DNA of 64,000 nucleotides, taken from contig JAULBX010012652.1 in the NCBI GenBank assembly GCA_032358255.1, forward strand, positions 1-64,000, written 5' to 3'. How positions within the stretch are numbered: position 1 is the first letter of the stretch; every line of letters begins with the position of its first letter. The notes below the pieces were generated by a model. The model was given only the letters and a program-made list of their open reading frames with translations. It was not told the DNA's origin and did no database searches. The position numbers and the translations under genes are program-made. Positions 234-60,464 of the stretch are shown here, piece by piece. This DNA comes from Heterotrichella gracilis. Taxonomy: Eukaryota > Sar > Xanthophyceae > Tribonematales > Xanthonemataceae.

Positions 234-1718
234 CTTGGCATACTATGTAGTGTGTCCCGGGCTTGCTGAACAGGCGAGTGTAGCTGCCAACCTTCTTGGC
301 AGCATCCAGCACAGCAAGGCGGGAGAGTTGGCACTTGTCTGCGGCATACATTGCCGCTGTGAGGTGTACACATGCGGGGGGATGCTAGGGACTCACATAG
401 AAAATCAACAACAGAATCCTGATTGACATAAGATTACAACAAATAATTCAGTTAATTATATTGAAGGAAGGTTCGCACTTCTGATCTGCTGAAACTGTGA
501 ATAAAAATTCTTCCGGTGGGAGGGGGGAGTTGGCAAGTGCCGCCGAGAGTTACAACAAGTCCACAGCTGCAAGCTATTATGGCATGATGCAGGCATGGGC
601 TACATGGGCAACAAGGAATACAGTCATCTATGACTACCATTTGGGAATTTAACATGCTCACACGCTCAGACGCACACCCACATAACCCACATCCACACAC
701 GTCACCAGAAGTAGCAGGCAGAAGAGTTTTCCTTTCGGTAGTTCCTGGGCAAGCACGATCTAAAATAACCATTACAGCTAGCGTGCATGATATACAACTG
801 CACCGCAACCGTGGTCAAAGGTTAAAACACTAAAAATAGCCACTTGCATTTACCTAAGTACACATCCACTTCAACAGTGCGTACCAAAGGCTAGCTTGTC
901 AGGTGCTGCCGCTATTCCATGCTTGATCTTTGACCACGTGAAGCGAATGGCATCGCCGCAGTTGATGGTGATGGGCTTGTAGGGCTTGAATCCCGGCTGA
1001 TACTCCCATAGCAGGGGAACTACCTTGGCATCTCCTGCTTCCAGGAAAGTGACCATGCTATTCAAATGCGGGATAACATCACATACACTTATATCTCAAA
1101 CATGGGTTTGGGCTGTAGGATTTTGGGGTTTATGGTTTTAAGCTGTAGGGCTTGCATGAGGTGGGCCATTCACAAAATGGGCTGCGTGGGCAGGTTGGGG
1201 AGTTCATGTGTGGCAAAACGAGCAGGAGTAGAAATGTTGAAGTTAAATTGCAACCAGCCAATTGCAGAGGGTTTTGCCTATCCTGGCTAGAAGTGGGGGT
1301 TTAAAGGTAGATGTGCAAAATGCGGGAAGAATGGGGCAAGTTGTAACCCCTGCAACAGATGCAAGGTAAACACAGGTTGTTTATAAGGTACTTGATACAA
1401 CTAGCAGCTTGTGGGTATTTTCGTGGCGGCAAGTTGCTAGGCAGCTAACTGCCCAGCTCCTCTGGACAGATATTTAGGGGGGCTGGGTCAGGGACTGCGC
1501 AGCTGTGTAGGGCACGGTACATAGGCTCAAGGGTTCAGGGTACAGGAACAATGCCACAAGGCAGGGGAAGTGCAGCTTCCTGAAGGGGTGGCTAGGGAGT
1601 ACGTACCAACGTTCGAAGTTGCGCATAGCACTAGCATAGTTGCCACGACCTTGAGCTTATGGGCGGCCTTGATGCCTCTAGTGGCCATGGCAGTACTGGT
1701 GGCACCAACAGCCGCCAT
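234..1718 (-). CDS. Phytocyanin-like cupredoxin (blue-copper domain), 3' part beyond window
   Basis: Three exons on the minus strand join in phase: 1718-1607, 1034-885 and 356-234; introns follow GT-AG. Exon 1 gives an N-terminal signal-like segment (hydrophobic VVATMLVLCATS after a basic stretch); an in-frame ATG ten codons later is an alternative start. Exon 2 carries PITINCGDAIRFTW followed by IKHGI, the usual first beta strands and first His ligand of plastocyanin-like domains. Exon 3 ends with KPGTHYIVCQ, which fits the strand bearing the copper-ligand Cys. The remaining His and the axial ligand are not visible; a possible next acceptor lies at bases 8-9, so the gene probably continues off the left edge. 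By family the product would be a secreted or periplasmic electron carrier or metal-binding wall protein. Two cysteines (one in exon 2, one in exon 3) could form a structural disulphide. Family is well supported; exact function is not known. Confidence 0.62.
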
Positions 1719-2296
1719 CTGTGTTAGTAAAACTCCTTCGGGATGCTGTTTTGTTGGGAGGAAAGTCTGATGTTTGAGGTTATGTTGGGATAGCAGTGCA
1801 AAAGCTCGACACGGCCCTACAATTAGTCGGCAAACAAACCCAAGTCATGCCACTTTATACAATATTGGGCTCCGTTTAGCAACTATCTGTGTGCCTTACC
1901 GTGGCCGAAGTATTCGAAAGACGGTGCAGCAGTCACTGGCCATTGCAATATTCAGGGCAGTTGGCCAACACCGAGCAGGAGAGTACACGCCCAGAACCGT
2001 TGCAGAACGCCAATACCTCGCGTGCGCGTATCGGTGTCGTATGACAGCCACGCCAGACACGCCTCAAGCCCCCACTTAGAGGCTCCAACACTCCTCGCGC
2101 ATATTTCCACACGCTGGCCACGCTCCGTGGCGTGTGCGCACGAGCCAGTTTACTAAATTGTATAAATTTTAATGTTAAAAAATTTGGTACGTTATCTATA
2201 TTTTATTCGGTTCAAATCAGGTAGTCTATGTAGTCAACCCAATTTACTGTATTTTGCAGGCTTGAATTTTTTTGCAGGAATACAGGAAGTATATGC

Positions 2297-2691
2297 CTAG
2301 TGGTGGCACTCTGGGCCAAATTTGGGGGGGGCAAGGACCATGCGATTTGGACCCCTTCCGGTGGTCAAACACACTTTTTGAACACATATTCGGAATCAGC
2401 ACTTCGACATTGGTTTGTACGATGTTTCAGAAAGTGTGTCTAGGACGCGGAAAATGGCCATATTTTCCTTACAAAATCAGTCAGCAACTAAACCAGTCAA
2501 AATCGTCCCAAAGTCGACGTACAAAACGACTCGAAACGACTTCCGAACAACACAAAAGAAAGTTCGAAAGCGTAGATACGCTTCTCGTCGAGTTACCTTT
2601 GCAACACCGTTTTTAAAAGTTCGAAATTCGTCGGGAATTGGGACCATGGTCCGCGGCCCCAGAGTGGGAAATCAGAGAGTGCCAGCACTAG
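2297..2691. mobile_element. MITE-like non-autonomous DNA element with terminal inverted repeats
   Basis: The element starts CTAGTGGTGGCACTCT (2297-2312) and ends with the inverse AGAGTGCCAGCACTAG (2676-2691), 15 of 16 positions paired. It is flanked on both sides by the same 11 bases, GAAGTATATGC (2286-2296 and 2692-2702), as expected for a target-site duplication. The 395-bp interior has no convincing coding frame. Caveat: the GAAGTATATGC motif also recurs just downstream (near 2739 and 2770), so part of the flank identity may come from a local tandem repeat. An 11-bp duplication would resemble Mutator-like rather than CACTA elements. Confidence 0.55.
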
Positions 2692-2785
2692 GAAGTATAT
2701 GCACATAATGTATATTTTTTGCAGGAATACAATATAAGGAAGTATATGCACATAAGCCTCCCCATAAGGAAGTATATGCAAGTAA
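2686..2785. repeat. Short local repeat of GGAAGTATATGC
   Basis: Three copies of the 12-mer lie within about 90 bases (starting near 2691, 2738 and 2769), with another at 2285 left of the MITE-like element. Two copies are followed by ACATAA. The rest of 1,719-3,708 has no gene I can support. Confidence 0.5.
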
Positions 2786-3708
2786 GTATAAGGGAAACTG
2801 TTATCAATGTCAAACTTTTTTCTTCTTTTTTTCCAAGCCTGGGTTAGCATGTCTGGGCCGGTGTCTGGCCATGCCTCACCCCAGTCCAAGAGCCAAGACT
2901 TATGCGACACTTTTCCAGTGTGGCAGATGGTGGTCAAGCAGTCATGCCGTCTACTGCACTTTCATGCTACCCATATATCCTGCAGCTTTACAGAGTACCA
3001 GGTAACCATGCAAGGCAGGTTCTGTGCATTAAATAGCTATGATTTCCCAGACGTGCACGCAGTGCATGCAGTCATGCAGTCATCATGTTGTCACTATGCA
3101 CACTGTGTGGTAGTTTTCCGCAAATCTTGAAGGATGTGTATCGATTCGCAGGATAGCAAATCTAGCACTGTCAGTGACAGAGTAAATTTGCAATGGCCGA
3201 TTTAATGTCAACGCAACCAGCAGGCACCTAGTCCCTGTTGGGTGAGGTGGACCAGCTGGACGGCTGTACCCCGTCTATGCACCTGGATAAAAACGTTTAG
3301 TTTTTTTTTTAAACAGATGCAATAACACTAGCAAGGATGAAGGCAACATGATTTACGGAAATTGATCATGTCAAACAATACCGTGGGCCAATCATATAAT
3401 GGCAAAACATACAGTACACGCGACTTCCATTTCAGTCAATATGGTAGCTCCACATTGCACTTACGTTACAATGTTGACTCATACAGACTTATTACCAAAG
3501 GTATGGCATGTGACTGGTTAAGTGCAAATTGTAAATGCCATACCAAATGTACTAAATACTCAAACCTGCGTCACGTTACCCAGTGGGTGTCCATGTATCC
3601 TGCCTTACAACTTACATCATACTGGCCCTAAATAGTATTAACTACGTACCCTGTTGTCTGCATTGCCTGTGTGTGTGTTTACCCATGGTGTCTACTCTTT
3701 TGCTGGTT

Positions 3709-6700
3709 TTAAGTTTTCTTTTTGGGAGGCGGTGACCGCTTGGATCTGGGTGGAGGTGATTTCTTTGGGGGGGGTGATTTCTTGAGGTTGATTGGTTGCT
3801 GACTCTTGGGAGGGGGTGGTTTTTTGAGGTTGGCCGGTGGCATTTTCTTGAGCGGGGGTGGGTTTCGTTTGGGCGGGGGAAGCAGGGGTGGTTTGCGCGT
3901 TGGCGGGGGTTGGCGACTGGCAGGGGATGGCCGCTTGACAAGCTTTGGAGGTGGCGGAGCTGACTTTGTTATGGTGGGTGGTGGTGACTTGGCTACGGGT
4001 GGTGGAGACTTCGAAATGGGTGGTGGTGTCTTGGCGGTGGGTGGAGGTGACTTTACAATGGGTGATGGTGACTTTGCGGTGGGTGAAGGAGGCGGTGATG
4101 ACATCGGTGATGTGGTGCCAGGTGGTGGTGGTGTGGCAGTGGTAGATGTCGGGGGCTTCACAATGGGTGGCGGTGACTTGGTGGTGGGAGGTGGCGATTT
4201 TGCGACGGGTGAAGATGACTTGGCGGCAGGTGGTGGGGCCAGGCCTGCATGCATTGCACTGCTTACATTGCATTCAAGTAACTCTGAAGGGGCTAGCATT
4301 GGAGAAGGAGACCATACATTTTATATCGATTCCCAAGTAACCTTGTTTGCAGAGTATCCCACAATGGCAAGAGTATCTGAGTATGTTTTCTTTTTCAATA
4401 CGACTTTACAGAATGTGTAGTTCTAATGAGGATAAATGCGCATTAAAGTTACACAGCACCGTCCCAAAGATAGGCTTGCATGGGCCCTGTATGCAAGATA
4501 TTGCTTTTCTAAGTACTTTTCCGCAGGGTATATAAACGCTTGTACTCACATGCAGGTGCTATGCAGGCTGTGTTGATAGAAAACGAGGCTGTCAGAAGAT
4601 ACAGGGCATCAACCTCAGTTTCTGCGCTTGAGACTTTCACTTCCGCTGAGCCTGCCCCTGCAAAAAAGGCACACACTTGTTTCATTTCATATAAAGAAAA
4701 TATTTACCAAGCATGTAAAATTTCAGCTCTGAGACGAGGCCTTTGTAGCATGTCTAGGTATGTCTCCCTGCAATTCAAGGGTCAAGGTAACCAATGCTTC
4801 TAGGGAAAGTCCTCAACGCTGACCCTATGTAGCGCTATGCGCATGGTACTACAAGGTCAAGAAATACCTGTCTACATGATCCTATTAATCCAACTGCCAA
4901 TTGCAGAGCATTAATTCTGTCACAAACACTGCATGGTTGCTAAATGCGTGTAACTACTTGACACCTCAATGTGGGACGCACACTTGTTAACAGTTACGAC
5001 ATGGGGCATGCACGTGATGCAGGTGCTGATGCAGGTGCTGACGTAATTTCAGTGATGCCAGTGTGCAGCTTGAGTGCATTTAGTGCAATTTTTGTGTGTA
5101 ATAACCTGCACACATGTGCACGTTAAAGGAGCCAGAATTTCAGTTAATGAAATTGCTCCAGGCCGGAGTAAGGGTTAACGTGAGTGGTGAAATAGGAGAT
5201 CCCCACAAACTGTATATATTTTCTTAAGTTTATATCGTGGCGTGGTAGGTAGCTTGATAGGTAACCACACCGTGTACCATTGGTTGTAGTGTATTTCAAT
5301 TGTTGCCCAGCCTGAAAAGAGGAGGTATTTGAATATCCCATCTCCCAATACAAGCTCATTCCCCATGGCACATATTATATACATCAATGCGCATAGTGCG
5401 TATTGCCTGCAGATGCCTCCTACCTGCTGCGCTGCAGGGCACCAATAGATTGAGAGTGAAGCGGTCCAAAGCATCATCCTCGCTGTGCCAAAACCGGTTG
5501 GAGCTGCAAGGAGGTGGAATGGGAGCGGTCTCTAGATACAATCTCAATGAATACGTTATGATTCATTGTTGGAATTTATGGCATTTGTCATCATGATTGA
5601 ACCCCATCGTTGGGCCCGGGCCCTCGGGAGCAATGGCGTTTTTTGGGACAGTCAATGCAATGGAATGGTCAAGATCTTGACTCAGGAAGTACTAAATTTA
5701 CTATATTGATCCAATATCACTCGTTTTTCCATCCCGGAAAAGAATGGGAATGCTGTTTAGCATAAGTGCCTGTCAGTTCTATATTTTAATTATTTTAATT
5801 CACATGCAAGTTTCTTCTCCCCATAATACCTGTTCACCCTATTATTGTGTCAGATGCCAGGGGTATCAACAAATGGCGGAAATATAAACATGAATGAGTC
5901 TTTCTTTTAATTATTATAGGCCAAAGTAATATGATATGTTTTTAAGTGAGACATGTTTATCTTCCGACTTGAGGCATTTTTTTATTCGGCGAAAAACAAC
6001 ACCGGCAGTTAATGAACTCATTCATATTATCCTATGTGTCAGAATAGTTTTTATCTCATGTCTTATCTTATGTATAAAATTTGTAGCTACAAAGACCGCA
6101 GGCACCTGGTACCCATTTGACCCATGAATATGTGGCTAGCCACACATTCTGTCCGTATAGGCAGAGCCCTAGGGCCTCTCCTTGACCGCGATGCCCTTTT
6201 AGCCCTCTACAACATTCGTGCAGACACTACATCCACTGAAGCTCATGTGCAGTAAACTAAGTTAACTAAGTTGACAGTGTCCAGTGCACGCACCATGCCT
6301 TGTCCTCTGCGAAGCCAAAGGTGCCGGTGGTTGATGTGACATATGCCTGCCGGTAGCTATCTTCAGGGAAGGATACGGTGAGGGTATGTCTCTGCCCAGG
6401 GCACAAACTGGTGCGGGTGGAGGTGCTGCCGGACAGGCTTAGGGTGATGCGGGAGGAGCTGCAGCAGAGTGAACGGCAAAATAACAATATCAGACCACTT
6501 ATGAGACATTTACTGCGATGGATAGGACAAGTGAGGGGGGATGGTAATGGGTTAAAAAAAACATCAAGGAAAAACAGACAGAGGGTTCTAGACAATGCAT
6601 GGTGTGTGTTAATTAGACCAAAATGGGTGAGGTTAGAGCTGAGGTTAGCGGCCATTAATGGACTTTGTCAGAGCCTCAGCTTTGAACATTTGTATCTGAC

Positions 6701-7146
6701 AGTTACAAAAAGGACGCTAACCTGGGCTCACACGACTGGTGGAGGGTGCTTAACCCCGCAGGCTAAGAAGTCTAGACATGGCCTACATGGCCAGATCTGT
6801 GAGTTGATACTGTGTGACATTTACACAAGAAAAATATGAATTGGAGTTTGGTTGGTTGAACATCCAAAAGTTTTGCTCTCGGCTGGGTGGTTGTTCACAA
6901 TCCTATATGCCACCCGCACTGGTTCATACAGGAGCACTGCTGAGCTGTTGAAAGATCTGGGGTTGGCGCATGCGCACACCTATCGGTTCGAGGGTCTTTG
7001 TGCTCCGCTATCTCGTATACGCCTCCCCCCACGGGATGCAACAGGCACCGCTTGGAGGCGTCTTGTGAAAACATCGAGTTCACCGCATCTACCCAATGCT
7101 GTGGGTGGGCACTTGCGCATGTTGCTGCCAGTATCCAAGCCACCAT
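3709..7146 (-). CDS. Secreted Reeler-like domain protein with Lys/Pro-rich wall-type tail
   Basis: Minus-strand model with exons 7146-6980, 6458-6294, 5503-5424, about 5311-5271, 4657-4550 and 4244-3709. Exon 1 starts with a signal peptide (MVAWILAATCASAH). Exon 2 holds an SSRITLSLSG strand followed by LCPGQRHTLTVSF and AYVTSTTGTF, and exon 3 holds CSNRF...LNLLVPCSAA; this order matches the N-terminal module of the cytochrome b561 gene at 17,607. Exon 6 (about 178 residues) is a long run of SPPP, PPPK and KSPPP units ending PPPKKKT and a stop, typical of hydroxyproline-rich wall glycoproteins. Junctions 1-2, 2-3, 3-4 and 5-6 agree in phase; the exon 4 to exon 5 junction does not with the obvious donor (phase 0 into phase 1), so the boundary of exon 4 is wrong or a small exon is missing. 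Product: probably a secreted cell-wall or periplasmic protein. No catalytic residues seen. It is divergent from the FEA-like gene. Confidence 0.6.
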
Positions 7147-7790
7147 CACGAGTATGGAGGGTGTGCAGGTGAGTAAAGCTTGGTGGGCAGGGGGGACCAT
7201 TCTATCGCGTCGTAAATCGACCTAATAACTGCACATTTGCACGTTAGAGCAACGTATAGATAGTTTAGACCCAAACCGACACGATATATTAGGTTTCCCT
7301 TTTTCGCGCGGGTTAAAGAAATCGTGCGCCTGGCCTGCACAGTTAAGTCGCACTGTCTGCAGCGTGCTAGCTTCGCCGCCGCCAATCACTCCAGAAATGC
7401 TTATCCAGTCAAAGGCCAAAAAATCTCGAGGAGCTGCTGAAGGGAAAACTTTCGTGCTTAGCTTGCACCTGGCGCGTGCCGCACGCCACTCCAGGGCCCA
7501 CCCTAGGGGGGTGGCTGCACGGCGGCACACAGGCACAGAGCGGGCAGCGCGCTTGCACCAGGCAAACTGCGCGTTGACTACCTTTGACAGGCTATCGGCG
7601 TTGTAAGTCGACGTTTTTTGCAGTAAGCGCTTGCATATACGAGCGCACGGTTGAAGGCTATTTGAGCAGCGGCAGTGCAGATGTTGGGTAGTAATACCAG
7701 CACCATTTTTTTGTATCGGTGCGTGCGTATCGACTACAAGGGTTGACTAGGCCTAACCCAGCGTTGCCGTGTTTGCTTTGCCTTGGCAGG
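7147..7790. promoter_or_regulatory. Shared divergent intergenic region (Reeler-like gene left, FEA-like gene right)
   Basis: The start codons of the two oppositely oriented genes are only 644 bp apart (ATG at 7146 minus and ATG at 7791 plus), so both promoters must lie here or in upstream non-coding exons. The segment is locally GC- and CpG-rich (for example around 7,300-7,560), as in many green-algal promoters. A TTGGCAG just before the ATG at 7791 could be a splice acceptor of a 5' non-coding exon. I see no clear TATA box. Confidence 0.45.
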
Positions 7791-10700
7791 ATGGCTAGGC
7801 AACTTCTAGCCTGTCCATCAAAGGCGGCGCTGGTTCTGCTGGTGTGTGCATTGCAGGTGACATCCCACCTGCAGGCCGCCGCTGCCAGGACTGGGGCACG
7901 CACCCTGCTCCAGACCTTGCCCGAAGGCACCTTGGCCAATACCACCGACATCGCCTGGTTAGGATACAAGTTCGCCGGCAATGTGGCAGGTGATGTTCGC
8001 GATAGCAACCTTCCTAGAGTGTGGACCTGTTTTGCACCTTGAAATGGACGCATGCCATTACATGTAAAGGAATGTTAGGAATGCGACCACCATCATGATC
8101 ATCATCAGCTCGGCCAACCCTATGCACAACACTCATGACCTAACACAATCTATGCACAACGTCTAAAGTCTATAAAATAACGTGACGAAATACAAGAGGT
8201 TTTAGATTACAAGATGTTTTAGCTGCTATTACAAGATGTTTTAGTTGTACAGTGTTTGGATGTTGCAGGCGCGGATTTGCCAACAGCATTCATTATTTTC
8301 TATCGCTGACAGTGCTGGGTTAGCGATGGCCCTTTTTTCAAAAACACAAAAAACCTGAAATTACTTTCAGGGTTGAAAAGCTGCCTGTCGCAATAAAATA
8401 TTAGAATGGGTGTTGGATGGCCATGCGCATGCTGATTGTATTGCGCTGGTTTGGTCCCGTGTGCATACTGTGTATGTACTGTTTAATTTAAGTAATTACT
8501 GGCATACTAGCTAAACACTCTTGTCGATGTTTCTTTTTCTGCCAAGATGCTCAAACTTTGTTGGTGCCGTATTGACACCCCGCTCTCCCTCCCCCCCGCC
8601 CATGCTCCCCTGCAGGCTACATGTTCCTGAGTGATGATAGCTGTGACATGGCAGCAGCGCTGGCGGCTGGAAACCTGTCTGCAGCCGCTGACATTTATGC
8701 CAAGGGGAAGAACTCGCTGCTGGGCTCTGGACTACCGAGGACCCTTAAGGGTACATATGTGTCTCCGGCACTGCCACAGCGTTGAAAGTGTACTCTGCCA
8801 GTGCCCTACCTATACTACTGCAGTGTACTAATAACTCTAAATGAACAAAAAGACCATGTAAGCTATATAAGCTATCTAGGCCAATGCTGCATGACATCTC
8901 ATGGCATCACGTGGCAATGTAGTAAATGCAGTAGATAAATCTTTATATTATTGTAATAAGCTGAAGAAATCATTTCCTTTCTATTTCTCAACCAGAGTGA
9001 TATGGAATAAGCCTATAGGCCGGCGCCCACCTTGTAATCTTGGAAGCCGTGTTTGCAACTGTACAGGCAGTGGTAAGCCCATCTTGTCACAAAGGCAGAC
9101 CATACTATGATGCTACACTTTAAGCGATTTAACCCTTACTCTGGTTAACTGTTTGCCACCATCATCACACTTGCCCTGCAGCCTTGACCCTATTTAACGC
9201 AACCTGGCCTGCTTCAACCGGACTCATCTGCCATTTTGCAGCCTTTGCCCTGTCCAACCGCAACCTGACCCTGTTCAACCAGTTTGCTGCCTATTTTGGG
9301 TCACGCACCTGGCTGGATGACTACATTGGAGCGGCAGCCAATGGCACAGGTGGGGTGCAGTAGGTGGAGTAGGTGGAGGAAGTGCCTTAGATGTGAGGGT
9401 GGGTACTCGCGTGGGTGACGAGTGCGGGTGTGCGTAGTGCGCTGTATTACTTGCTGAGTAATTAATACAACAGCATTTCAATGCCTACCTTCGCCTAATA
9501 CTTAGTTGATCACATATGTTGGGGCACTTTTTATTACATAGTCTGTGACATGCACCCTTCCAGTTGCTGCACTTATTCATTACTTCATTTGCACAGGTGT
9601 GTTTGCCCAAGCTAGTGATGCCGTGCGCGGTGCCGCCCTCCTGCACGGCTCCCGAGGTCTGGTGATCAACTACCTGCTCTACGAGCTGGAGTCTGGATAC
9701 GCAAAGGTCCTGGTTAACAACACTGCACCGGCAACAGGTGGGCAGTGCCTTAGAAAAGTGCTTAGTTTAATAAATTAAAGACCACATATTTGGAGCATGC
9801 CAGAAATGCAAGGGGTTGCAGCACTTTAAACAACTAGCTATGGGTGGTGAGTGCCGCACCCTCTTCTCATTTGGCTATTGTCTGCTAAAAAACATTGTTG
9901 TCTACTAAAAAGCATTACCCAAAATTAGGTTTAGGGCTTCCATTGTGATGCGCCCTCCACACAATGCGCTGACGCAATCTGGGCATCAAATGCGCTGATA
10001 AAACTTTGGCACCACACCCTGAAATCTACAACCCACATCAAACACAAGCTAGAATTTACCCGAGGGAGCTCCACACAAACTGTGATCCCAGGTCACAACG
10101 CCCTGGTCACCTCAACCTCTCGATCTCCCTAAACCAGGGTTTACCTCCTGCGCCCTACACACTGTTGAGGTGGACCGGACACCACCACCTGGTCCCTTAA
10201 CCATCAACTCTGCATCACCCTAAGTACCCTAATCTAGGGTGTGCATGCGCAGGCGCCCCCCACAACGTTGATGAGGCCTGGGCACTCTACACAGGCAAAA
10301 CCCCATCCTGTGCCCCCTGGGGTCTGGCAGAGGCGGCGGGGGCGGGTTTTGGAACTCTGGCCAATAATTGCAGTGTGAGGTGAGGATCGGCACAGTAGGC
10401 ATGTTAGCCAGCATATCCTAGGTAAGGGAGGTAGGTCGGCTGGTTCGATAATTTCCTCTTGGATGTACAGAACTGGGTTGCACATGTGCTTGATAGTTGT
10501 GGCCCACGTCTCAGCGTCAGGTGAGGAATCAGAGGCAGGCAATAGCCCTCCTTGGCAATAATTAATTATAAACTGATCTTAATATTTTATTAACCAGGGT
10601 TTGCGGCTTCCTTGTAGAAAGAAAAAAAAAAGTGGGACAGATTACCAGAGGCTGGGGATTTTTGCTTATATCTATTATGACACTGTTGGTTGCATACACA

Positions 10701-13700
10701 TATGTTAAGTCAGGAGTATTCATAATATTATTTCGCTAAAACAAATTCTTCTCCCACTACTTTGACTTGCCAACTTGAATCACTGGATAGAAAAAAACAC
10801 TTACATACTTTATACTTTTTCTTGTGTTTTATGACCACCATCACACTCCCCGCGCAGTTCTGTCAACACAGCAGCCACCTCCTCCTACAACACCATGATG
10901 GTCGCAGCACGAGCGGGTGATGGACCAAACTATGCAGCTGCTTTGGCAGCCCTGGTGAAGCAGATTGCACTGGCATTTGCACAGTCAACACTGGTGGCTG
11001 TGGATCAGCTAGAGCAGACGCTTGGTGCCGCTGCAGCTAACAGCAGCGCTATTCAGGTGGGTGGGGGTGGGGCAGGTGGGTTCACTCGTGCCACTCAGAA
11101 CAATTTCCCTTCGACTTTGCACTTGATTGGAGGAAAACGAATTACCGAGTTTCGTATTTCATTGAGGACGGGGTTCAGGAGTGAACAAAAGCCTTTTGCA
11201 AAAATACATGCATGGGTCCATGTCCTTGATTAAGGCCAAGCAGGTAGCTGTGGTGCAAACCTGGTGCAAACATTTCATCAATCTCATTGATTGGATGCAA
11301 TAATGTAGTGTAATCCTCTGTCACCCTGCATGCTCTGACCGCGCTTGTCTATCCCTGCCCTGCATGATACAGTAAAGAGCCCGAATACAATACATGGCCA
11401 ATGACGTCAGCCAAAATTCCTCGTTCCATCACCACCAGCTACTTTGGGCCTATCCAACCGCAAGTGATCCCCTTGTGACTTGTTTTTCTCCAGGCCACCG
11501 CATACGCATTCTTCCGTACTGTCGCCCCCCTGGGTGCTTCCAGATCCCCCGCAGCTGTGCTGTCTGTCATGCAGAAGCTGAGGCCAGAGACAGTGAACTC
11601 TGCCAGCTCCATCAGCTACACTCAGGTAAGGTTTAAGTGTCACAGTCTAGTTGTTGTCTTATATGCAGAGGTGATCTACAGTTGACAAGGCAGTAACCAA
11701 CTGCACATGCAGCCATTTTTTCAGGTTGTGTTTCTGCATCCAGAGGTTTTGGACCCTCTCCTGAGACGTACGAGTCAAATTTACTCGACAAGTGCAATGT
11801 AAACAATTCAAATGCCCTGCCAAGTGCTATGTTCACACAATTGTCCACCTCTGTTTCCACCTACCAAGACGTTAACATTCGAGACCTAAAATGTTCTCTC
11901 ATTGTGTCACCGTCGAAGTTACCACCAGGCAATTGTACTAAATGGGAGAGCTCACATTTGAAATATTCGGCATAAATATGTTACAATATCCTGACTTGGT
12001 TACACAGTGGTTGGTACATGAGTGCAACCACCGCCCCCTCCTCCTTTCCCAGGTTGCCGGTGACATGCGCCTGGTGCTGTCTGCAATGGGCCTGTCTTCA
12101 GCTGCCCTGGGGACACTCGGGTCCACCTGTACCTTTATGCCAGCGGTGATAAACAACATCAACACTACGGGGACAAACCTGCTAGGCTTCACGTTTGCTG
12201 GCTCAGTAGGAGGTGGGTACGATCCGTTGTCCTGTATGGTGGCCACCCCAGGGGTTAATGAGAGTACGCAGTGAGATGTGTGAGTCTGTCAGATCTATGA
12301 GATCAGCACGACGTGGTGTAAAATACTCCAATCTTGCAAACTCCTCCTTCACTGTACAAACTCTCTACACACCCTGCACTTTATCCATGCACTTCTTTTC
12401 ATCCCACACTGGTGAGTCTTTCCGTGTCCCAACCTTCAATTTATTGATCCTAGTACCCTGGCTCCCTTGGTCCTTGCAATTGCTCCATCATTTTGGCCCA
12501 ATGCATTTTGCAATTGCTCCCCGTCTTGCTTTCAGATACCCTTGCTCCGCACTCTAACTTTTCCTCCCCTGTGCACGTGGCTACAATATTGATAGAAACC
12601 AGACAAACCAACAAATACCAGAACAATGATGGGTGCCCGCCATAGCAACCAGGTTACAACCAGGATTGTTTTTACAGTCCCCCTTTGCCACATTGCACCC
12701 TTGTCACCTTTCACTATTCTCATACCCTATTACCACCCCCTGATTACCCTGGCGTGTGGCTACCCAGGCTACCTGTACTTGTCTGACGACATGTGCGCTA
12801 TTGAGGAGGCTGTGGGGTCTGGAGACCTGCCAGGGGCGGTCAGCGTGTATGCCGATGGGAAGAGCTCGCTGCTGGGCACTGGCCGATTCAGGACCCTAAA
12901 AGGTAGGCTTGGAGAGTTGCGGCATTGTGTGCGCATTGCAAAAAAGTGTTGACGAGTAGCTACATGTGCTGTACCCTGACCTCCCAGACCACCACCGCCA
13001 AACCCCCTTGAACATGTTGCCAAAGCAGATGGCAATGTGTTGTGCACTGCTGTTCCATCCCTGCAGCGATTTTTTTGTGTACCTAGTCTACCCCATCCAA
13101 AGCAACCAGCTATTCACTTCAGGTTCCTGTCACAACTCTCCCTCACAAGGTTGGTTTCCCTCCCTTGCAGCCTTTGCCCTATCCAACCGCAACCTGACCC
13201 TGTTCAACCAGTTTGCTGCGTACTTCGGGTCACGCACATGGCTGGATGACTACATTGGGGCAGCTGGGAATGGAACAGGTGGGTTGGGTGGTGAGTCACA
13301 TGTGGTGTGGGCGGGGAGGGTGAAGCAAGCTTAGGATCTTGTAGTTACCTCGTATGATCAAGTTTGAAATTACATTAATGAGCAACATGCCATGTTGAAG
13401 CGGTATAGAGTTGCAGTAGTGAGCACCATTAGCTTCATGCCAGAAGACTGGATTAAAGCAAGAACAGTGCAGATTAGGTAGACTGGGAGGGGTGGTGATC
13501 AGTTGTAGTAATATTGTAGCTACAGGTTAGGTTGCTAAAAACCCAAGCTAATTATATATGCTCAGGCAACCTTGAAATTATCTGTGTTTGTAGTTCGAGG
13601 TTTATGGCATCCAGCCACCGCAGGTTCCATTGCTCTGATACATGTGTGTGTAACCATCTATAACAGAGACACACTCACATTGCACTGTATGCTGCAGCAC

Positions 13701-15904
13701 GGTTTGCTGGCCGTAGCGGTGGCGCTCGTGGGTCTGCGGTGCTCCACGGCTCACGTGCCTTGCTGGTGAGCTATCTGCTATACGAGCTTGAATCAGGCTA
13801 CGCAAAAGTCTTAGTCAACAACACTGCACCGGCAACAGGTGAGCAGTTTGCACATGAAATGCACAGGAGATGAGGCAGAAAATCATATGATGGCAAACCT
13901 AGGCTATACCTGTAGCCTGTGGGCTATAAGTACCTGCAGCCCTCCTTCTGAGATGCTGTATGTGCTTTATAGTGGACCTTTTTAAACTCTAAATCCGAAA
14001 CCCTATAGCAGCGAGTCGTGGCTTCAGCACTAGTGTAATTAAGTACCTGCAGCAGCAATTGTGGGTATGTGCGCTTGCCACAAGATGGAGAGCACAAGCA
14101 GTGCATGCATAGCCTTTCTCTGAATTTGCTTGGAGGAACCTGAGCTAGAACTTTCATCCCACAGGTGCCCCCCACAATGTGGACGAGGCATGGGCCATAT
14201 GGGCCGGGCGCACACCCGATTGCTCACTCTACGGCATGGCTGAGGCACTGGGGGCACAATTTGGAGCACAGGCACAGGGATGCACAATCAGGTGCGCTGG
14301 TGCAGTCAACATCTACGAATCCCTGCCAGGCGTTCCAATATCTGTAGCCATTCCATGTGCTGCATTAATGCACTAATGCACTAAGCTGCAGCAACCTTGA
14401 TGTTTGGAATACAGTAGTACTGTCTATCCAGTCACATGTAGCAAAAATTATACTAATGCATCTACCTCACTTACTCTACAAACGCCTGTTTGGCCTGTTG
14501 AAAATGCAACATGGCCTTTATTAGACCATGTATATATTTTCATCCTCATCACCACCCCACTGCTGACATGGCGACATATTTCCATATGTGCACTGCAGCT
14601 CCACAAATGCTGCTGTCGTGTCCGCCTACAGCTCCATGATGGCTGCTGCACTAGCGGGCGACGCACCAGGCTATTCCCAAGCGCAAGCAAAGTTGGTGGG
14701 GGCGATAGCAACCATCTACATCCAAGCAACCCTTTCTGCCGTCAGGCGCTGGGGCACGGCAGGGGTGGGGGACAAGCCACGCTTGCAGGTAGGGAATTGT
14801 GTTGCTCAAGGTGCAATGAGGATATAGGCTACGCAAAGTCGACGTAAAATTCATGCGTATGAATATCCTCTGCCTTTACTGCATTGGCTCATCTTGTACC
14901 ACTATACATGCGCTTTGCAACTGTATCTGTAACTGGTTTTTCTGGATGTACGCTGTACAGTTTTAATTGCTGGTGGCATACAGCCAGCATTTGACTAGCC
15001 AGTACTGTGCACAACATGTCTCATTCACCGATACCTACAGCCTGCTATTACTCTGCTGAACCCCCTGTAGAACACGCCAAATGCACGCGCTCACCTAGCG
15101 CACCCAATCCTATCTCAATCCAGGCTGAGGCCTACACATTCCTGCGTACCCTGGCACCCCTTGCGCCAACCGGCCCGGCAGCCACTGGCGTGTCAGCACT
15201 GCTGCAGGCACTGGACGTGGCAGGAACCCCACCCACAGTGTCATACACCCAGGTATGCTGCGCCAGGATGTGTACAGGCTTGCCTGCTTGCTCTTTTTCT
15301 TAGTTAACTCCACCCAGGCCTGGGTCTAAGCAAAAGAACCCTTCCTCTATCCGACAGGCTGATAACTAATTTGTACTACCGGTAATTATCTGGCCTATTG
15401 TGTAATCGTATATACGTGACAAAAGAAATGTTCGTTCAGGTGCAGCCGTTCCCTAAGTGACCAAATGGCACAAACCAAACACCCCCCTCCCGCTTGCCTC
15501 AGGTGAAGACACTTCTGAACACGTTCGCCGCTGCGCTTGACATCCCAATTGCTTCAATTGGCACGTACAACGCGGATTGCACAGTTTCGCCGCCACCTGC
15601 GCCACCATCCCCAGCACCACCCGTCTCACCACCACCACCATTCCCTGCCAAGTCACCACCACCCACCAAGAAATCACCACCACCCACCAAGAAATCACCA
15701 CCACCCACCAAGAAATCACCACCACCCACCAAGAATTCACCACCACCCACCAAGAAATCACCACCACCCGCCAAGAAATCGCCACCACCTACCAAGAAAT
15801 CACCACCGCCCACCAAGAAATCACCACCACCCACCAAGAAAGCACCACCACCAAAGCAGAAGTCCCCTCCACCAAAGAGGGCCACTGGGAGGAGGCTTGC
15901 ATGA
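7791..15904 (+). CDS. FEA/H43-like periplasmic iron-assimilation protein, two tandem domains plus SPPPTKK tail
   Basis: Fifteen exons join in phase to 810 residues: 7791-7989, 8616-8750, 9242-9349, 9597-9737, 10253-10379, 10858-11056, 11494-11625, 12053-12212, 12768-12902, 13171-13278, 13698-13838, 14165-14291, 14599-14788, 15124-15252, 15503-15904. A signal peptide (ALVLLVCALQVTSHLQAAAA) opens the protein. Exons 2-7 and 9-14 encode the same six blocks in the same order: YLSDD, ALSNRNLTLFNQFAAYFGSR, YLLYELESGYAKVLVNN, APHNVDEAWA with a Cys-containing turn and AEA.GA.FG, an alanine-rich helix block, and a TFLRTLAPL block. The DEAWA...AE...FG signature is the one I associate with the FEA1/H43 low-iron or high-CO2 induced periplasmic proteins of chlorophytes and the related phytotransferrins. 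Exon 15 gives a proline-rich tail of nine SPPPTKK-type heptads ending in TGRRLA and a stop. Inferred role: extracellular ferric-iron capture, possibly wall-attached. Secretion and the duplication are directly visible; the family name is from memory and less sure. Confidence 0.68.
9182..9221 (+). pseudogene. Degenerate partial copy of FEA-like exon 3 in the preceding intron
   Basis: Immediately before the true exon 3 (9242-9349) there is a second CTGCAG acceptor followed by about 40 bases that align to the first 40 bases of exon 3 at roughly 80% with small indels (shared cores include CGCAACCTG and TTCAACC). It lacks the rest of the exon and no donor follows at the matching place. I read it as a remnant of a local duplication, not a used exon. 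Confidence 0.5.
15653..15841 (+). repeat. Coding 21-bp tandem repeat, nine SPPP(T/A)K(K/N) heptads
   Basis: Nine consecutive 21-base units (TCACCACCACCCACCAAGAAA and close variants) encode SPPPTKK with one SPPPTKN and one SPPPAKK variant; APPPKQK and SPPPKRA follow. Near-identity between units suggests recent slippage or unequal crossing-over. Proline clusters preceded by Ser are typical targets of prolyl hydroxylation and arabinosylation in plant and algal wall proteins; the interspersed lysines make the tail strongly basic. Confidence 0.9.
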
Positions 15905-16367: not shown

Positions 16368-16483
16368 GGCAGATGGTGATGTTAGCCAACATGCCGTCAG
16401 CTGCTAGCATCATCTACATCATCAATGTGGACGGCTAGAACGGCACGCCTATCACAATGCCGCACTCCAGGGCCCTCAAGTGA
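16368..16483 (+). pseudogene. Exon-like relic with an in-frame TAG
   Basis: After an ATTGCAG acceptor, a frame reads MVMLANMPSAASIIYIINVDG, then TAG, then in the same frame NGTPITMPHSRALK and TGA. Both halves look protein-like. No upstream partner exon was found between 15,905 and 16,360. The family is not recognised. The remainder of the 15,905-17,606 intergenic stretch shows no gene I can support. Confidence 0.3.
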
Positions 16484-17606: not shown

Positions 17607-20600
17607 ATGAGCACACTTGCAATACCAGTAACACTGTCTCCACTCCAGTGGCCACCTCAACTGCATAGGTTGCTGTGGGTTTGTGTAGTGGTGGCCTTGG
17701 CTGTCATGTTTGATTCAGCCCAGGCATATCCAGTGCTGTATTTGGCGGGGTACAGCATGGAGGACTGCAGCGCACTGCCCACAACAGCGCTGGGACCGCA
17801 TGGTGCACCACAACCCGACACGTGTGTGACGCCCACCCTGGAACCCTCCAAAAAATCTGTCTCCGTCAGGGTGCATGGGGCCTCACAAGGTGTCCATCTA
17901 GAATCTGTTCTCTGAGGCTTATGGGTCAGATATTTGACTATCACCTGGCGACAGATAATGCCTGTATCTGCAGTTGCAATGTACAAGCGCAGATTACGAT
18001 ACTATACTTGTGTATATCTAGTATATCTTAAAGCATACCAACTATACTGACTACGTTGACATGCAGCATACTGCCTACTTGGACAAGGCCCATGACATCC
18101 TTGGCATCCTGGTTTGTGCAGGGGGGTCGACATTCGCCTGAACCCATCACTTGCCCCACAGCTTACACAGCCTGCGGAGCAAGCTCGAGATGCACCAGGA
18201 GTTTCTACTGTGCATTCTGTCAACAATGCCTCTGGGCGGCTGTGCCCCGGCCAGCCGCATGGATTGCAGGTGGGTGGGCAACCTGAGCAACCTGGGGCAA
18301 AGGGGTTAGAGGAAGTAGGGGTCCAGACGGGCCAGCATTTTGCATGTGGGTACATTGCAATTTCTGCGTGAGTGAAGGAATTAAGGGAACAAGAAAGGTT
18401 ACACACAAGTGTGTTTTCTATATATCTTGCCCCACCTCAGTTTCCCCAAATGTTGGAAGGTGGTGGCAGTGCACTGCATAATTTTGATACACTCTCTAAG
18501 ACCCAAATGAGCATGGTCCAGGCCAACCTGCTGTCATATACCAATGTGACTCCAAATTATGCCGCCTTCCCATCTCTACCTTCCCATCCCATGCTTGCAG
18601 CTGTTCTTCCGCACTCCCCGTCTCATTTACGTGACCACCAACCTTGGGGCCCTGACAAACCCACAGCCTCCGCCAGATGAGGCCCCACTGGACATGTTTG
18701 GATGGTAGGGCCTGATCATTACCTACAAACATGTTACTTTTGATGCCTGTTTTGCAACAAATTAATAATGACACTAAGCCACGTACAATTGTTCTCCAAA
18801 GTTTTTTATTTCCTTTGCACCGGAACTTCCCTCAGTAATTGCCTGCCGAGCACTGTCTCTAAAGTGCCCAAAATTAGGGATCGTTTTTGAAACAGGCCAA
18901 GCTGTTCAAGTCAACCCTGGGCACTTAATCTACATATTCCATGCAAACGTGAACCAGTCACATAGCTTACATACAATGCTATTCATGTTGTTGACTCACA
19001 TCTGCTTGATTGTGACCTTGACTCTGGATAGTCCATGTAGTCATGCGTGCATGCCTTGCCCCAGCATGCAGGCATGTAAGGAGCGGTAGCTGGTACCAGT
19101 TTGGATCACATGTTGCATGTGTACGCAGCTCAAATCGCTATGCCACCAGTGCTATGGAGCCTCCAGGGAGCGGCCTTGACACCTGGGAGCTGACATGGAA
19201 AGCACCCTGCACAGGTAGCGTATGTTTGGAACGCAGCAGTCAGACAACCCAGTATAAAGCACTTGTATGTGTGGCGGTGAGGGTGTGGCATTGAAGTGCA
19301 GCACCTGGTAACATTATCATGCCTATTTATCCTTGCATGCCACGCCCTGACAAACGGCGGCATGGTACACAGTGCTGTGAAGTGCCCATGGAATAATCAT
19401 GTATCAATGGTTAAAATACAAACTTTGCGTAACGCCTTCGACGTTTGCATCACCTGACATTCAACATGGTAGCCAATACAGTGAACACAAGGAAAGGGAA
19501 TGCCGGCCCTTTGCCAACTCCCAGGATGGCCATTTCTAAGCAACGTTATTGTACGAGAACAGGCTACAGTTAATTATTTGTTCGCATCCATCTGCCTACG
19601 ATTCCATAATTGTTTCTGCATTTCCCTACATGCACTTGTGCAGGGTATACTGGGAAGGCCACGCAGCTGGAGGTGCATGTGCTGAGCACGGTGGGCGAAG
19701 CCCATCCACTACTGTACGCCAAAGCCACGTTTGCCCCCGACTGGTCATGCGCCAGCGCCACCTGTGCGTTCGTGGGGCCGGGTCACATTGAGCCAGCCAT
19801 CCCGGTGTAGCCGGCATGTGCAATCAATCTATCTTCTATAAGTCACAATATATATTTTGTGCAGCACTCTACTCTATATCCTAACCTCTAATATGTCAGC
19901 AGTATGAATAGCATAGATAAATGCCCCAGCCAGCAAACAGGTGTTGTGGTGCCCTGCTTTATTTTCTTTATCTGCTTAATGGAACTTTTCATGTGCACAC
20001 CACCTGATCAAGCCAGTAGGGAGCACCTTACTTTCAATTAGCTGAGCCCACCCCCTGCCAGTCAACACCCCACCTGCTAGCCATGCTTCACTGCCACACA
20101 CCACATCTGCTGCCATGCACACTTCACACAGCCACTTAGCTGCCAGAAATGCCTATCGTACTCATGGGCCGCATTGCATGGCCTGGGTAGGAATTATCAA
20201 CAAACAATGGCCACATAGCCACACACCATGCACTCCCGTTTGTTTGAAGGTTGGTAACAGCAGGCAAGTGGCCACCAAGTGATCACCACTCCTGAGTTAA
20301 CGTTGGGGCAATAAGGTCCATCTTAATGCATCTGTGTTTTTGCACCCTACTCATCCAAATGTATATGGTGCAGGTGCTAGGTCAGCCCCAATCGACCATG
20401 CACCCACACCTGCCTCATATGGCTTGCCATCATCAGCTACGTCAACACCTGTAGCAGCACCCCCCGCTGACCTGGGACCATCACCTTCACAGGTGCGTAT
20501 ACGTACTTGCGATAGCAGTACTAGTACCGCGAGGGGGCGGGTGTGGGGTGTGGGGTGGGGGTCGGAGGGGGAGGAGGGGGAGTGTATTTGTCTAAACCCG

Positions 20601-23600
20601 ATTTTACAACCCTTTCTCTTCCCCTCAGAGATGCATTAGATGCAAGCTCTCACGTATGTCTAGTGCGGCATCCGGATTTCGATGTGCACACAAATGATGC
20701 GCATGACAGCCACACCCACTGGATTTGAAACTTCCACCAAGAGCCTTATCCAGGCTTAGGAATTAAGTTATAACAGACTACGCTCCTGCACACTGTACAG
20801 GAATAACAGGGATCCTATAACATCCTATTGAGTTGATAACAATCAATTGGGTTGAACAGCCCATACAAGGATCTACGAGTGCATACAATTGCAAACACAC
20901 GTACTAATTATGAAACCCAGTCTACACTCTGCATGGCACACGTAATATCTCTTTCACAAACTTTTGGGTTCAACATCGCAGGCTGGGTCCCTATGTGCCA
21001 CCTCGCCGCTGGGCTACCAATGCTCTCTCCTTCTTGGCACTGCAACCCTCCACTACAGCCTGCTATCTGCATCCAAACCACCTCCCGCCAATGGCTGCAC
21101 CGCTGCCGCCGCCACATACCAGGTCAATGCAAACACAGGAGGGGTCCAAGTACCTCAGGCGGCTCATGCAATGAGGGCTGGTGCACAGCCACCTGAGAGT
21201 GACCACACTCCAGACATTGGCCCACAACCTGCCCCACCGGTGATGCCGTGTGCCTCCATGCCAACTGCATCACCTTTTGCCAACGGCGGAAATGCTGAGG
21301 GAAGCAATGAAGTAAATGGCAGCAGGAATTTGGCCACCGACTGCATAGTGGTGAATGAAAGCATGGTGTTGCACCTGGCATTGGAGGCAGAAACAAGTGG
21401 CTATTTGGCGCTTGCCTTCCCTGCTACTGTGGGTGAGTACAACACACGTACTTGTGCACATACAGATAGCTGTGTATTGATGAATATATACATTGCCTTT
21501 CATGTGCTTGTTTAAGCAGGTATGGCGACATATATGCAGTTGTCTAGCTGATGGGACAAGCTAGAGAGATAAATAAATTTAATATTCAGGAAACAAGGAA
21601 ATGCAAGGGTTGCACGATGATTTATCTCAATCTCAAGATGTTGTCAACAAAGTTTTTAGTCTTTAAACCCCTGGCAGTGCTGCTCATGATCTGTACAGTT
21701 GCGTTGTCAGATGCCAACAAATAATGCCATCGGTGTGCGCGCGCCGATGCGCCTAGTTGCATTTATTGCATTGTTCAAATTAGACTTGCAATATTGCAAA
21801 TGAACGAGGTCTCTCTTTTTTTGCACCCTGATACTTTATCGCACACTCACTGTACTTACATCACTCACCATATTTGGCATGCTCGTTTTGTAGGCATTAT
21901 GTCACCATCTGATTCCGTCATCGCCTGGGTGGACCCCAAAACCCTCCTGGCCCACATCCAACCCTACACAACCACAAGCTATGCTGTTGACCAGGAAGAC
22001 GTGACAGTGGCAGGATGGGCAAGGGGCATGGGGGTGGTGAGGACAGGACAGGGATCTACCAGCTCCACCCTTATGTGCTTCCACAGAATGCTGAAGGATG
22101 GCCAGGCAGGGGTGTCGGCAGAGCTGAACATGGAAGCAGGTTGTGCACCTATCACCAAAATAATCCGGCTGCATTAGTTGGCTGTTACCTTGCACATTTG
22201 CCAAGTGATTGTGCCACCATATGGCAAGATCAATACAATGGGTGGCCACCACACACACGACCACCCAAACTTTGGTATACAAAACACACATGCAATATTA
22301 CCTGAAATGATGGGCTCCAGATGGCATAGATGGCATACATATGTATACATAACCAGTATGGTGTGTACATATGTACCTTCATAAGGTATGAAGGTACACA
22401 TGGACACATCATACTGGCTATGTGCTGTGTGCCGCCTTGGTGTTTATTGATATGCCTATGCGCTCCCCCATATCCCTAGTCCCCCACCCCTGCAGGCATT
22501 CCCATAAACTGGGCACTGGGCAAGCTCGCTCGACTTTCAATGCACTATGAAACTGGCGGGGTACTGCTGAGGTTTGGGTCATCGGCAGATCCAGGTATGT
22601 GTAGTAGGCAAAGCGTCCTTATAGTGCACTTAATTCTATGATGGCTATAAGAGATTTTTCCATGCAAACTTTTCTGCGATTCAGATGCCCAATGGGGGCC
22701 ATCATAGGCCCAAGTCTGCCTGCAATAAATACAATTAAAGTGCACATGTAGCAACTTTGATGCCATTGAGGCTTACCTTCTGTCATTGAGGCATACCTTA
22801 CGTGGTGTTGCTGAGGCCCATTGAATTTCACGACACACACTACATGCCTAATTGTAGAAGGAAATGAAAAAAAATGCCAAAAAATTGCACAACATTTACA
22901 CCATTGGAAAAACCGTATTGAGCTGTGCATATGTGTATATACAGTGCACAGTGCAACATAGTCGTTCATGTGTTGGCACTTTGTACTAATTACACTCTTC
23001 CAAGCGACCGTCTCAGGCTCCAATTTCAATGCACTGTCACCTTTTCATCCTGATCAGCTTGTTCCAGTGATACACAACTCTGTATAAATTAACTCATATT
23101 GTTTATGATAAAATGAACTCTAAAACAAACGCAAATATACTCTGTTACACTAATGAATTAGGCTAATAGACCACTGAGTCGGCCATTCAAAGTATAAAAT
23201 GGATAATTACTGCAGCCATGCAATTAAAGCCTGGCATGGCAGCCTTCAATTAATGTCATAGCCTTTTTATGTTCTATGCAAGCCAGTGACAAATCTCTGC
23301 ATGCAGCATCCATTGCCCCATCGGCGGCCCCAACCTACCAATCATGGGGTATGTGGCATGGTGTGATGATGTCATTGGCATGGCTGGTGGCGGCGCCATG
23401 TGGTGTGCTTGCGTCACGGTACCGTTGGGTGTGCACTTCCCCTGTGGTCCACACAAGGAGTGGCAAGCCAAGGCGGGCAGTGTGGTTTGAGGTGCACTGG
23501 GGGCTGCAGGTGGGGCTGCATTGTTTGCACAAATGTTTTGCATACAGCACATTTAATTCATACAGCACCAGATAACCCTATATTTTGCTAAAACAATATC

Positions 23601-24685
23601 TGGGAGATTGCAGAGATGCAGGTTTTTACTGTGTTACATTCCATAGATGTTGCGACAACCCATACATAATAGAAAGCACTCTTTCTGACCATGCTTTATT
23701 TAAGTTGCATTTATGTAGTGTCAATGTCACAGTGGTTACAGTGGAACAGTGCAAAAAAGGGAATTTCCATGCGCAAAGAAGTTTGCACCCGGAAGCAGCT
23801 AGGTAAATAAACATGTACTGTTGACGAACAAGATAAGCAAGATTGACCACAACAAAAAACCGAGAAAAACGGCTCAGACAACCTAGGACTGTCTTTAGTA
23901 TGGTGGTTTGGCTTAGAATATTTTTGTTTCTGTAAACGCTACTTACAGTATTTTTTTAATTATGGTTAAAGGATTGTATGCACATTGGTTACACTCGTTG
24001 TTCTTTTGTCCTCGCAACTGCAGTTGTTGGCCACAGCGCTGTTTGCCGCCAGCAGCGCAATTGCGTTCGCATGCTTACCGTGGGAGGCGACTGCTGGAGG
24101 GGTGGGGTATGCACATCGGGTAATGGGCATAGCAGCCATTGTGGCGACCGGCGCACAGGTGGGTAGCTAGGGCGCCAGGGTAGGATGGGTGGCCGGGACA
24201 GAATGAATACCTTCAACACCTATCCACAGGAGGATACCCCCTTTCTCTTATTTAGCTGAGCTCCTACAGCTTTCTCTAACGTCTCCGACAGGCTGTTATA
24301 TGACATCTGTCTGGTCTGCTTTGTCACTTTTTAGTTTCGCACATGGTTTCTCACATAGTCTTATACCACCCTTGTGCAGGTATTGGCAGGCATCCTGCGC
24401 CCTGCTGCACAGGGGCCACTTCGTCCATATTGGCAATGGACACATGCTTGGCTAGGACGCGCGCTGTGTGTGATGTGCTGGGCAAACTGCTACGTGGGGG
24501 CTGCTCTCATGCGTAGCCTTTCACAGGGGAATGAATTCATGCAATGGGTGGCGGGAATGTCAGCAACACTGGCGACAGTTGTGGTGGTGGGTGTGGGCCT
24601 GGATGTGCGTGGGTGTTGGCTGCGGCGTAGGCAAGGGAATGGCGAATGCAGCAACCCCAGGTCTATCACTCAGGCACTGTGTTAA
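17607..24685 (+). CDS. Reeler-DOMON-cytochrome b561 protein (ferric-chelate-reductase-1-like)
   Basis: Twelve exons close in phase to about 760 residues: 17607-17870, 18162-18269, 18601-18704, 19129-19214, 19644-19781, 20374-20492, 20982-21432, 21894-22139, 22496-22594, 23283-23509, 24024-24158, 24380-24685. The exon 5 donor (GTCACA) is weak and that junction is tentative; exons 7 and 8 also use unusual or weak sites nearby. Order of domains: signal peptide ending DSAQA; Reeler-like module (LCPGQPHGLQ, LIYVTTNLGAL, CSNRY...APCTG); a proline-rich linker; a C-rich LGYQCSLLLGTATLHYSL block and DOMON domain (SMVLHLALE, SGYLALAFPATVG, IMSPSDSVIAWVD); then a five-helix cytochrome b561 core. Four candidate haem-ligand histidines are visible in WHGVMM, EVHWGLQ, YAHRVMG and THAWLGR. 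By family this moves electrons across a membrane and can reduce ferric iron or copper outside, with ascorbate as usual donor. A further 3' exon near 25,014-25,169 cannot be excluded. It faces the GT31-like gene tail to tail. Confidence 0.72.
22349..22421. repeat. Long imperfect inverted repeat inside a DOMON-region intron
   Basis: Two 35-base arms (22349-22383 and 22387-22421) separated by three bases pair at 31 of 35 positions and would form a strong hairpin in DNA or pre-mRNA. The arms include GTACCTTCATA and its inverse. It lies within the intron 22140-22495. It could be a tiny palindromic element or a structured intron segment. Confidence 0.65.
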
Positions 24686-60435: not shown

Positions 60436-60464
60436 CGTTGTGGTATTACGGTAATACCACAACG
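60436..60464. repeat. Perfect 14-bp-arm palindrome downstream of SRP54
   Basis: CGTTGTGGTATTAC and its exact inverse flank a single G. Related GTATTACGGTA and GGTATTACG fragments occur about 100 and 315 bases further on, hinting at a small repeat family. It could act in 3'-end formation of SRP54 or be a remnant of a palindromic element. Confidence 0.75.

Follow-up and report, generated by a model that had tools for sequence, protein, structure and literature searches.

The window analysed here comprises the first 64 kb of contig C128 (JAULBX010012652.1) in the 68.5-Mb genome (903 contigs) of Heterotrichella gracilis. Its gene content, with Fea1, CYBDOM, SRP54 and wall-type tails rich in proline, would suit a green alga. 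Near its start lie four genes for which an earlier note had proposed a common role in surface iron chemistry: a gene of the FEA type (FEA), a downstream gene for a DOMON-cytochrome b561 protein of the CYBDOM kind (gene D), a gene with a Reeler-like domain (gene B) and a cupredoxin-like fragment (gene A). The splice models were built by hand from genomic sequence without transcripts, by placing exon cores in frame and then enumerating and scoring introns. That every one of the 31 introns in the four models is GT-AG is no test by itself, because the search was limited to GT or GC at the donor and AG at the acceptor. The top-scoring intron was taken in 12 of 14 cases for FEA, in 9 of 11 for D and in all 11 for a paralogue of D on contig C343, while the remaining introns of FEA and D were picked by homology. 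Genome-wide match counts given below are lower bounds throughout.

The assignment of the gene at 7,791-15,904 to the FEA family is close to certain. Pfam returns a single family for the predicted protein, Fea1, in two stretches (E-value (E) 1.1e-61, 209.3 bits for the whole against a cut-off of 25), and each half passes this cut-off when searched separately (120 and 98.9 bits). The earlier note would have given up its reading had a profile search placed this protein outside the family; the search places it inside. At least one Fea1 locus is thus present in the genome and only this one was found, with all four matches of the profile search and all 14 of the protein search falling in the window. 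The N-terminus is hydrophobic over residues 5-23 and signal-peptide-like by hydropathy alone, and the chain carries 11 sites of the N-glycosylation type. Near the C-terminus hydropathy reveals no hydrophobic segment; an SPPPTKK tail takes its place, encoded by a tandem 21-bp repeat and resembling what we take to be typical of wall hydroxyproline-rich (glyco)proteins.

By the gene model, FEA encodes one predicted protein with two complete Fea1 domains that would have arisen by internal duplication. The intron phases 1,1,1,1,2,0,0 occur twice in identical order, seven introns per repeat, and the paired exons are equal (135/135, 108/108, 141/141 and 127/127 bases) or nearly equal (199/190 and 132/129) in length, although this symmetry is not wholly independent evidence because the match between the repeats guided some of the splice-site choices. 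The two repeats are identical at 182 of 328 residues. Nonsynonymous divergence (dN) between them is 0.39 by NG86 and 0.43 by YN00, which points to both copies being held by purifying selection, and synonymous divergence (dS) is 1.37 and 0.95, respectively, so that the duplication looks old. DNA matches between the repeats are confined to exons, except for a 46-base stretch in intron 2 and one 15-base match. The former (about 9,174-9,219) is like part of exon 10 (78.7% identity, E 8e-5) and is perhaps the remnant of a further small duplication. Exon 8 reads through without a break from the last residues of repeat 1 into the first of repeat 2, thereby joining both in one protein; its flanking introns are top-scoring choices (13.8 and 6.8), and the model contains no stop codon or hydrophobic signal-type stretch between the repeats. 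The FEA reading of the earlier note therefore stands, but the doubled domain, the wall-type tail and the known precedents had been overlooked.

The CYBDOM assignment of gene D is strong. The predicted protein scores 25.5 bits against Pfam Cytochrom_B561 (cut-off 23) and 18.9 bits against DOMON (E 0.0018, below the cut-off of 32.7), in agreement with the earlier reading of this plus-strand gene as one for a DOMON-cytochrome b561 protein. In Arabidopsis HYP1, two histidine pairs are the proposed haem ligands of the b561 domain and a methionine-histidine pair is the proposed haem site of the DOMON domain (PMC10784544). D has histidines 547, 593, 628 and 664 near the five hydrophobic segments that follow the DOMON domain, as well as Met417 and His513 at the places expected for the DOMON pair. 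This matches the scheme of HYP1: D has the residues that two haems in its b561 domain and a third in its DOMON domain would be expected to need.

A genome-wide search with D led to its paralogue on contig C343, so that DOMON and b561 exons occur together at no fewer than two loci in the genome. The DOMON-b561 parts of the two proteins are about 41-43% identical, and all 11 intron phases agree (2,0,2,1,1,0,1,1,1,0,0), the third exon of D having been located with the paralogue as guide. Conserved between them are the four b561 histidines, the DOMON methionine preceding S/NPxDS and the histidine of SMHYE. The paralogue also comes closer to the DOMON family than D does (E 4.7e-5, 24.0 bits, still below the cut-off).

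The Reeler assignments are tentative. Neither B nor D matches Pfam Reeler, their domain pieces searched alone matched no family, and B as a whole has no Pfam family above its cut-off. What remains of the Reeler reading is homology to the N-terminus of the C343 paralogue, which itself approaches the Reeler family (E 0.099 as a whole; E 0.011 and 16.6 bits for the domain alone, cut-off 21). B is homologous to the N-termini of both CYBDOM proteins (E 2.6e-7 against D, E 4.5e-11 against the paralogue), and its intron phases 2,2,1,1 are those of the first introns of D without the phase-0 intron. Because B and D share this domain, their nearness may reflect local duplication and is then not independent support for a cluster. 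Contig C111 (L001, G000:C111) also has DOMON and Reeler matches, in open frames 787 and 291 residues long. L001 looks AT-rich and bacterial over its first 600 bases; the contig may come from a bacterium that contaminates the alga or lives with it.

The cupredoxin assignment of gene A is likewise tentative. The gene sits 2 kb beyond B and is truncated by the contig end ahead of the last copper ligands, and its reading is based on an H...C pattern and on one distant relative found in the genome (C156:62506-62688, E 3.3e-5, 41% identity). No form of the fragment that was tried gave a Pfam family above its cut-off, nor did the relative match Pfam.

The single divergent promoter suggested for the neighbourhood survives in part: B and FEA are divergent with 590 bp between their start codons, a possible shared promoter, but D and A have separate upstream regions. 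Four motifs were counted in three upstream regions of 4,282 bp together. The sequence CACGCG, which we take to be an iron-response element of Chlamydomonas FOX1, occurs five times against 1.0 expected (P 0.004 before correction for four motifs), a weak hint of an iron-response signal.

Relatives of Fea1 outside the algae may help to single out candidate residues. A scan of prokaryote genomes gave four loci with Fea1 relatives, all of them over the Fea1 cut-off. An FEA1-related lipoprotein family already exists as NCBIfam NF038033, against which FEA repeat 1 scores 159.6 bits (cut-off 250) and with which it shares a GAPHN-x-DEAWA block. The bacterial sequences have a single domain and, by eye, lipoprotein-type starts, in contrast to the two domains of FEA. 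In an alignment from which one relative (L053) was omitted because its Fea1 frame is broken, 48 columns are invariant in all five bacterial sequences; repeat 1 keeps 30 of them and repeat 2 keeps 33. All seven sequences have 28 of the 48 in common, and 11 of these 28 lie inside the block extended to A-x-GAPHN-x-DEAWA. Overall identity to the protein of locus L050 is about a third (103/303 and 99/299 for the two repeats). An AlphaFold2 model of this same protein, for which three sequences were aligned, consists nearly entirely of helices (mean predicted local distance difference test score (pLDDT) 82.6, predicted template modelling score (pTM) 0.83), where a transferrin fold is an alpha/beta two-domain lobe; the model concerns the bacterial relative and not the algal protein.

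In two of six bacterial neighbourhoods (L052 and L053) the Fea1-like gene adjoins one that encodes a periplasmic binding protein of the ATP-binding cassette (ABC) importer type. L052 (4180-9477), from an Actinomycetota metagenome-assembled genome, has the Fea1-like lipoprotein gene by an importer operon with binding protein, ATPase and permease-like frame. Beside it lies a gene for a lipoprotein that resembles cupredoxins (Cupredoxin_1, sub-cut-off at E 2.1e-4), so that the proximity of FEA and the cupredoxin-like gene A is echoed in a prokaryote. The bacterial Fea1 protein of another locus (L060, 7671-8843, G268) also matches DUF4856 above the cut-off (E 9e-6), a double match that may link the two families.

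Taken together, FEA and the adjacent CYBDOM gene probably form a surface iron-acquisition pair in which capture is followed by reduction. The two-lobed FEA protein would be anchored in the wall through its extensin-like tail and collect ferric iron, and the CYBDOM protein would carry electrons from cytosolic ascorbate via three haems and reduce this iron at the surface. Arabidopsis HYP1 does reduce ferric and cupric substrates with cytosolic ascorbate (PMC10784544). Ferrous iron would then enter through transporters encoded elsewhere. An FTR1 gene lies on contig C275, and FTR1 and Ferric_reduct matches occur on other contigs; the pair is therefore likely to belong to a larger system. Gene B would represent the Reeler-like domain of CYBDOM on its own, anchored in the wall. 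For the earlier proposal this means that capture plus reduction is supported for the pair, by the profile match of FEA and by the recurrence of FEA/DOMON-b561 linkage in Chlamydomonas, but B and A, the outer members of the four-gene neighbourhood, are not shown to belong to it. A bolder version is doubtful: FEA and CYBDOM would be an anciently linked green-algal module in which each wall-tethered Fea1 lobe binds ferric iron via GAPHN-x-DEAWA and passes it directly to the DOMON haem, with B as a docking or assembly part.

Several observations weigh against a surface iron pair. In FEA, residues 267-285 and 601-619, at equivalent places in the two repeats, exceed the hydropathy threshold and are here taken for buried helices, and its 810 residues contain no match to R/K-E/D-x-x-E or R/K-E-x-x-E/D motifs. 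Apart from the sub-cut-off DOMON score of D, the C343 paralogue gives no Cytochrom_B561 match at E up to 10 and passes the helix threshold at four of five places, compared with five in D. The sequence TGGCA, the core of a Chlamydomonas FEA1 element, is not enriched in the three upstream regions (18 against 22.5 expected). In bacteria, Fea1-like genes are rare, occurring in three of 396 genomes sampled from the Actinomycetota, the phylum of L052, with one of the three already among the four loci. In four of the six neighbourhoods (L050, L051, L060 and L061), open reading frame lists inspected by eye hold nothing iron-related. The binding proteins of L052 and L053 match SBP_bac_6 and their best NCBIfam models are for 2-aminoethylphosphonate, far below cut-off, which makes a ferric substrate a guess. 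Finally, the Chlamydomonas gene TEF22, a described relative in kind of gene D, is likened to it by description and not by sequence, and its role is perhaps mitochondrial (PMC4855317).

Among the alternatives, the one that fares best is an accidental adjacency of two real iron or redox genes, with D serving the redox chemistry of the wall or a general ascorbate redox balance across the membrane and not the uptake of FEA-bound iron. This is possible but unlikely. It would fit the C343 copy of CYBDOM, which lies apart from any Fea1 gene found since all matches of both Fea1 searches are in the window, and also the separate upstream regions of FEA and D, which lie on the same strand 1.7 kb apart. 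However, like kinds of gene are linked in Chlamydomonas, and with one Fea1 locus and two DOMON-b561 loci found in 68.5 Mb (both lower bounds) immediate adjacency would be expected by chance roughly once in several thousand cases, an estimate made after the fact. Less probable still is a role of FEA in a high-CO2 or other extracellular response to which iron is secondary, as the names H43 and HCR1 suggest. Both high CO2 and iron loss indeed induce FEA1 (H43) and HCR1 (PMC8098128), but the Fea1 protein of Ostreococcus is among the iron-loaded proteins (PMC4855317) and the neighbour of FEA in the window is a reductase-type gene. That the Fea1 repeats are separate tandem genes is very improbable, for even though the splice model comes from sequence and was picked partly by matching the repeats, exon 8 spans both, its flanking introns score highest, the intervening stop or signal-type stretch is absent and a duplicated Fea1 domain in a single protein is already known from Ostreococcus.

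Table 1. Features of the FEA-CYBDOM region of contig C128 and the CYBDOM paralogue on contig C343.
Feature	Position	Strand	Description
FEA gene	7791..15904	+	15 exons, 810 residues (splice model); predicted layout: signal-peptide-like start, Fea1 repeat 1 (exons 1-8), Fea1 repeat 2 (exons 8-15), (SPPPTKK)n tail
FEA exons 1-8	7791-7989, 8616-8750, 9242-9349, 9597-9737, 10253-10379, 10858-11056, 11494-11625, 12053-12212	+	
FEA exons 9-15	12768-12902, 13171-13278, 13698-13838, 14165-14291, 14599-14788, 15124-15252, 15503-15904	+	
FEA exon 8	12053..12212	+	End of repeat 1 and start of repeat 2
Tandem 21-bp repeat	15653..15852	+	9.5 copies, 93% matches; encodes the SPPPTKK tail of FEA
CYBDOM gene D	17607..24685	+	12 exons, 743 residues; predicted layout: signal-peptide-like start, Reeler-like domain (tentative), Pro-rich linker, DOMON, cytochrome b561 with five hydrophobic segments
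D exons 1-6	17607-17821, 18122-18269, 18601-18704, 19129-19214, 19644-19763, 20374-20492	+	
D exons 7-12	20982-21432, 21894-22139, 22496-22594, 23307-23509, 24024-24158, 24380-24685	+	
C343 paralogue of D	contig C343, about 99.0-105.4 kb	-	Model of 831 residues
B/FEA intergenic region	7201..7790		590 bp between divergent start codons; possible shared promoter
Gene B	7200-3709	-	5 exons (7200-6980, 6458-6294, 5503-5424, 4657-4550, 4292-3709), 385 residues; predicted layout: signal-peptide-like start, Reeler-like domain (tentative) homologous to that of D, long proline-rich tail
Gene A	1718-235	-	Incomplete at contig end; exons 1718-1607, 1034-885, 356-235; cupredoxin-like fragment (tentative)

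Further along the window, at 35782-37997 on the plus strand, an exon like that of a papain-family cysteine protease (Peptidase_C1 E 0.007, below cut-off) is followed by a downstream frame with a proline tail of the SPPPKQK type. If exon and tail frame belong together, a tail of this type would recur within the window on three or more genes of secreted type. Downstream of D and convergent with it lies a gene on the minus strand (about 25400-28000), one frame of which matches DUF604 (E 9.7e-6, just above cut-off), a family that we take to comprise Fringe-like glycosyltransferases; the enzyme could act on wall glycoproteins. In the interior of the contig (47656-47741), units of the AACCCTAAA type, like those of plant telomeres, make up a brief array, and the window also contains a gene for an SRP54-type protein on the plus strand (about 55480-60500; SRP54_N E 5.4e-10 for the first exon).

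For green algae, the mechanism of FEA proteins is considered unknown or a matter of debate (PMC8098128, PMC4855317). A linked FEA-CYBDOM pair beyond the Chlamydomonas example would supply a concrete partner, a reductase of a type that uses ascorbate in plants, and the doubled domain with matching introns, together with the invariant block shared with bacteria, provides candidate functional residues.

The closest counterpart in arrangement is the FEA1/FEA2/TEF22 locus of Chlamydomonas reinhardtii (Cre12.g546550, g546600 and g546500), where, as in the window, a Fea1 gene is linked to a DOMON-cytochrome b561 gene. TEF22 adjoins FEA1, and the levels of the two are high when iron is scarce (PMC8226295). 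TEF22 is said to share promoter sequences with FEA1 (PMC8226295, PMC4855317), and its product is characterised as a DOMON-containing b561 protein and possible ferrireductase (PMC4855317). At that locus TEF22 and FEA1 diverge and FEA is present as two genes, whereas in the window the CYBDOM gene lies downstream on the FEA strand, the divergent partner is Reeler-like and two Fea1 domains are found in one gene. Chlamydomonas FEA1 ends at residue 362 (PMC8098128), which would leave room for one domain only. Crystals of FEA1 have been reported and its mechanism is called unknown in the same source; a sequence search of the PDB found no FEA1 structure.

In D, the order of DOMON and five-helix b561 and the haem-ligand pattern are those described for HYP1/CRR (PMC10784544), from which it differs by an extra Reeler-like domain and a Pro-rich linker ahead of the DOMON domain. 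The animal protein FRRS1, with its Reeler-DOMON-b561 layout, is likened to D by layout only.

For the FEA protein itself the nearest parallel is Ot-Fea1 of Ostreococcus tauri (ostta18g01980), which is of secreted type, as is predicted for FEA, and has a duplicated Fea1 domain (PMC4855317), the same source stating that this domain has multiplied repeatedly and independently. The N-terminal region of Ot-Fea1 is unrelated, a membrane helix lies at its C-terminus and its sequence includes REXXE-type motifs; FEA has neither such a motif nor such a helix, and ends in the SPPPTKK tail instead. Diatom ISIP2a, or phytotransferrin, has the Fea1 family in common with FEA, which again differs in the lack of a REXXE motif and of a C-terminal hydrophobic anchor. 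R/K-E-x-x-E motifs are noted in Ostreococcus Fea1 and ISIP2a and given as absent from Chlamydomonas FEA1 in PMC4855317. Neither the two traits of the locus together nor the wall-type tail was found in the literature searched; each trait by itself has a precedent in a different alga, the doubled Fea1 domain in Ostreococcus and the DOMON-b561 neighbour in Chlamydomonas.

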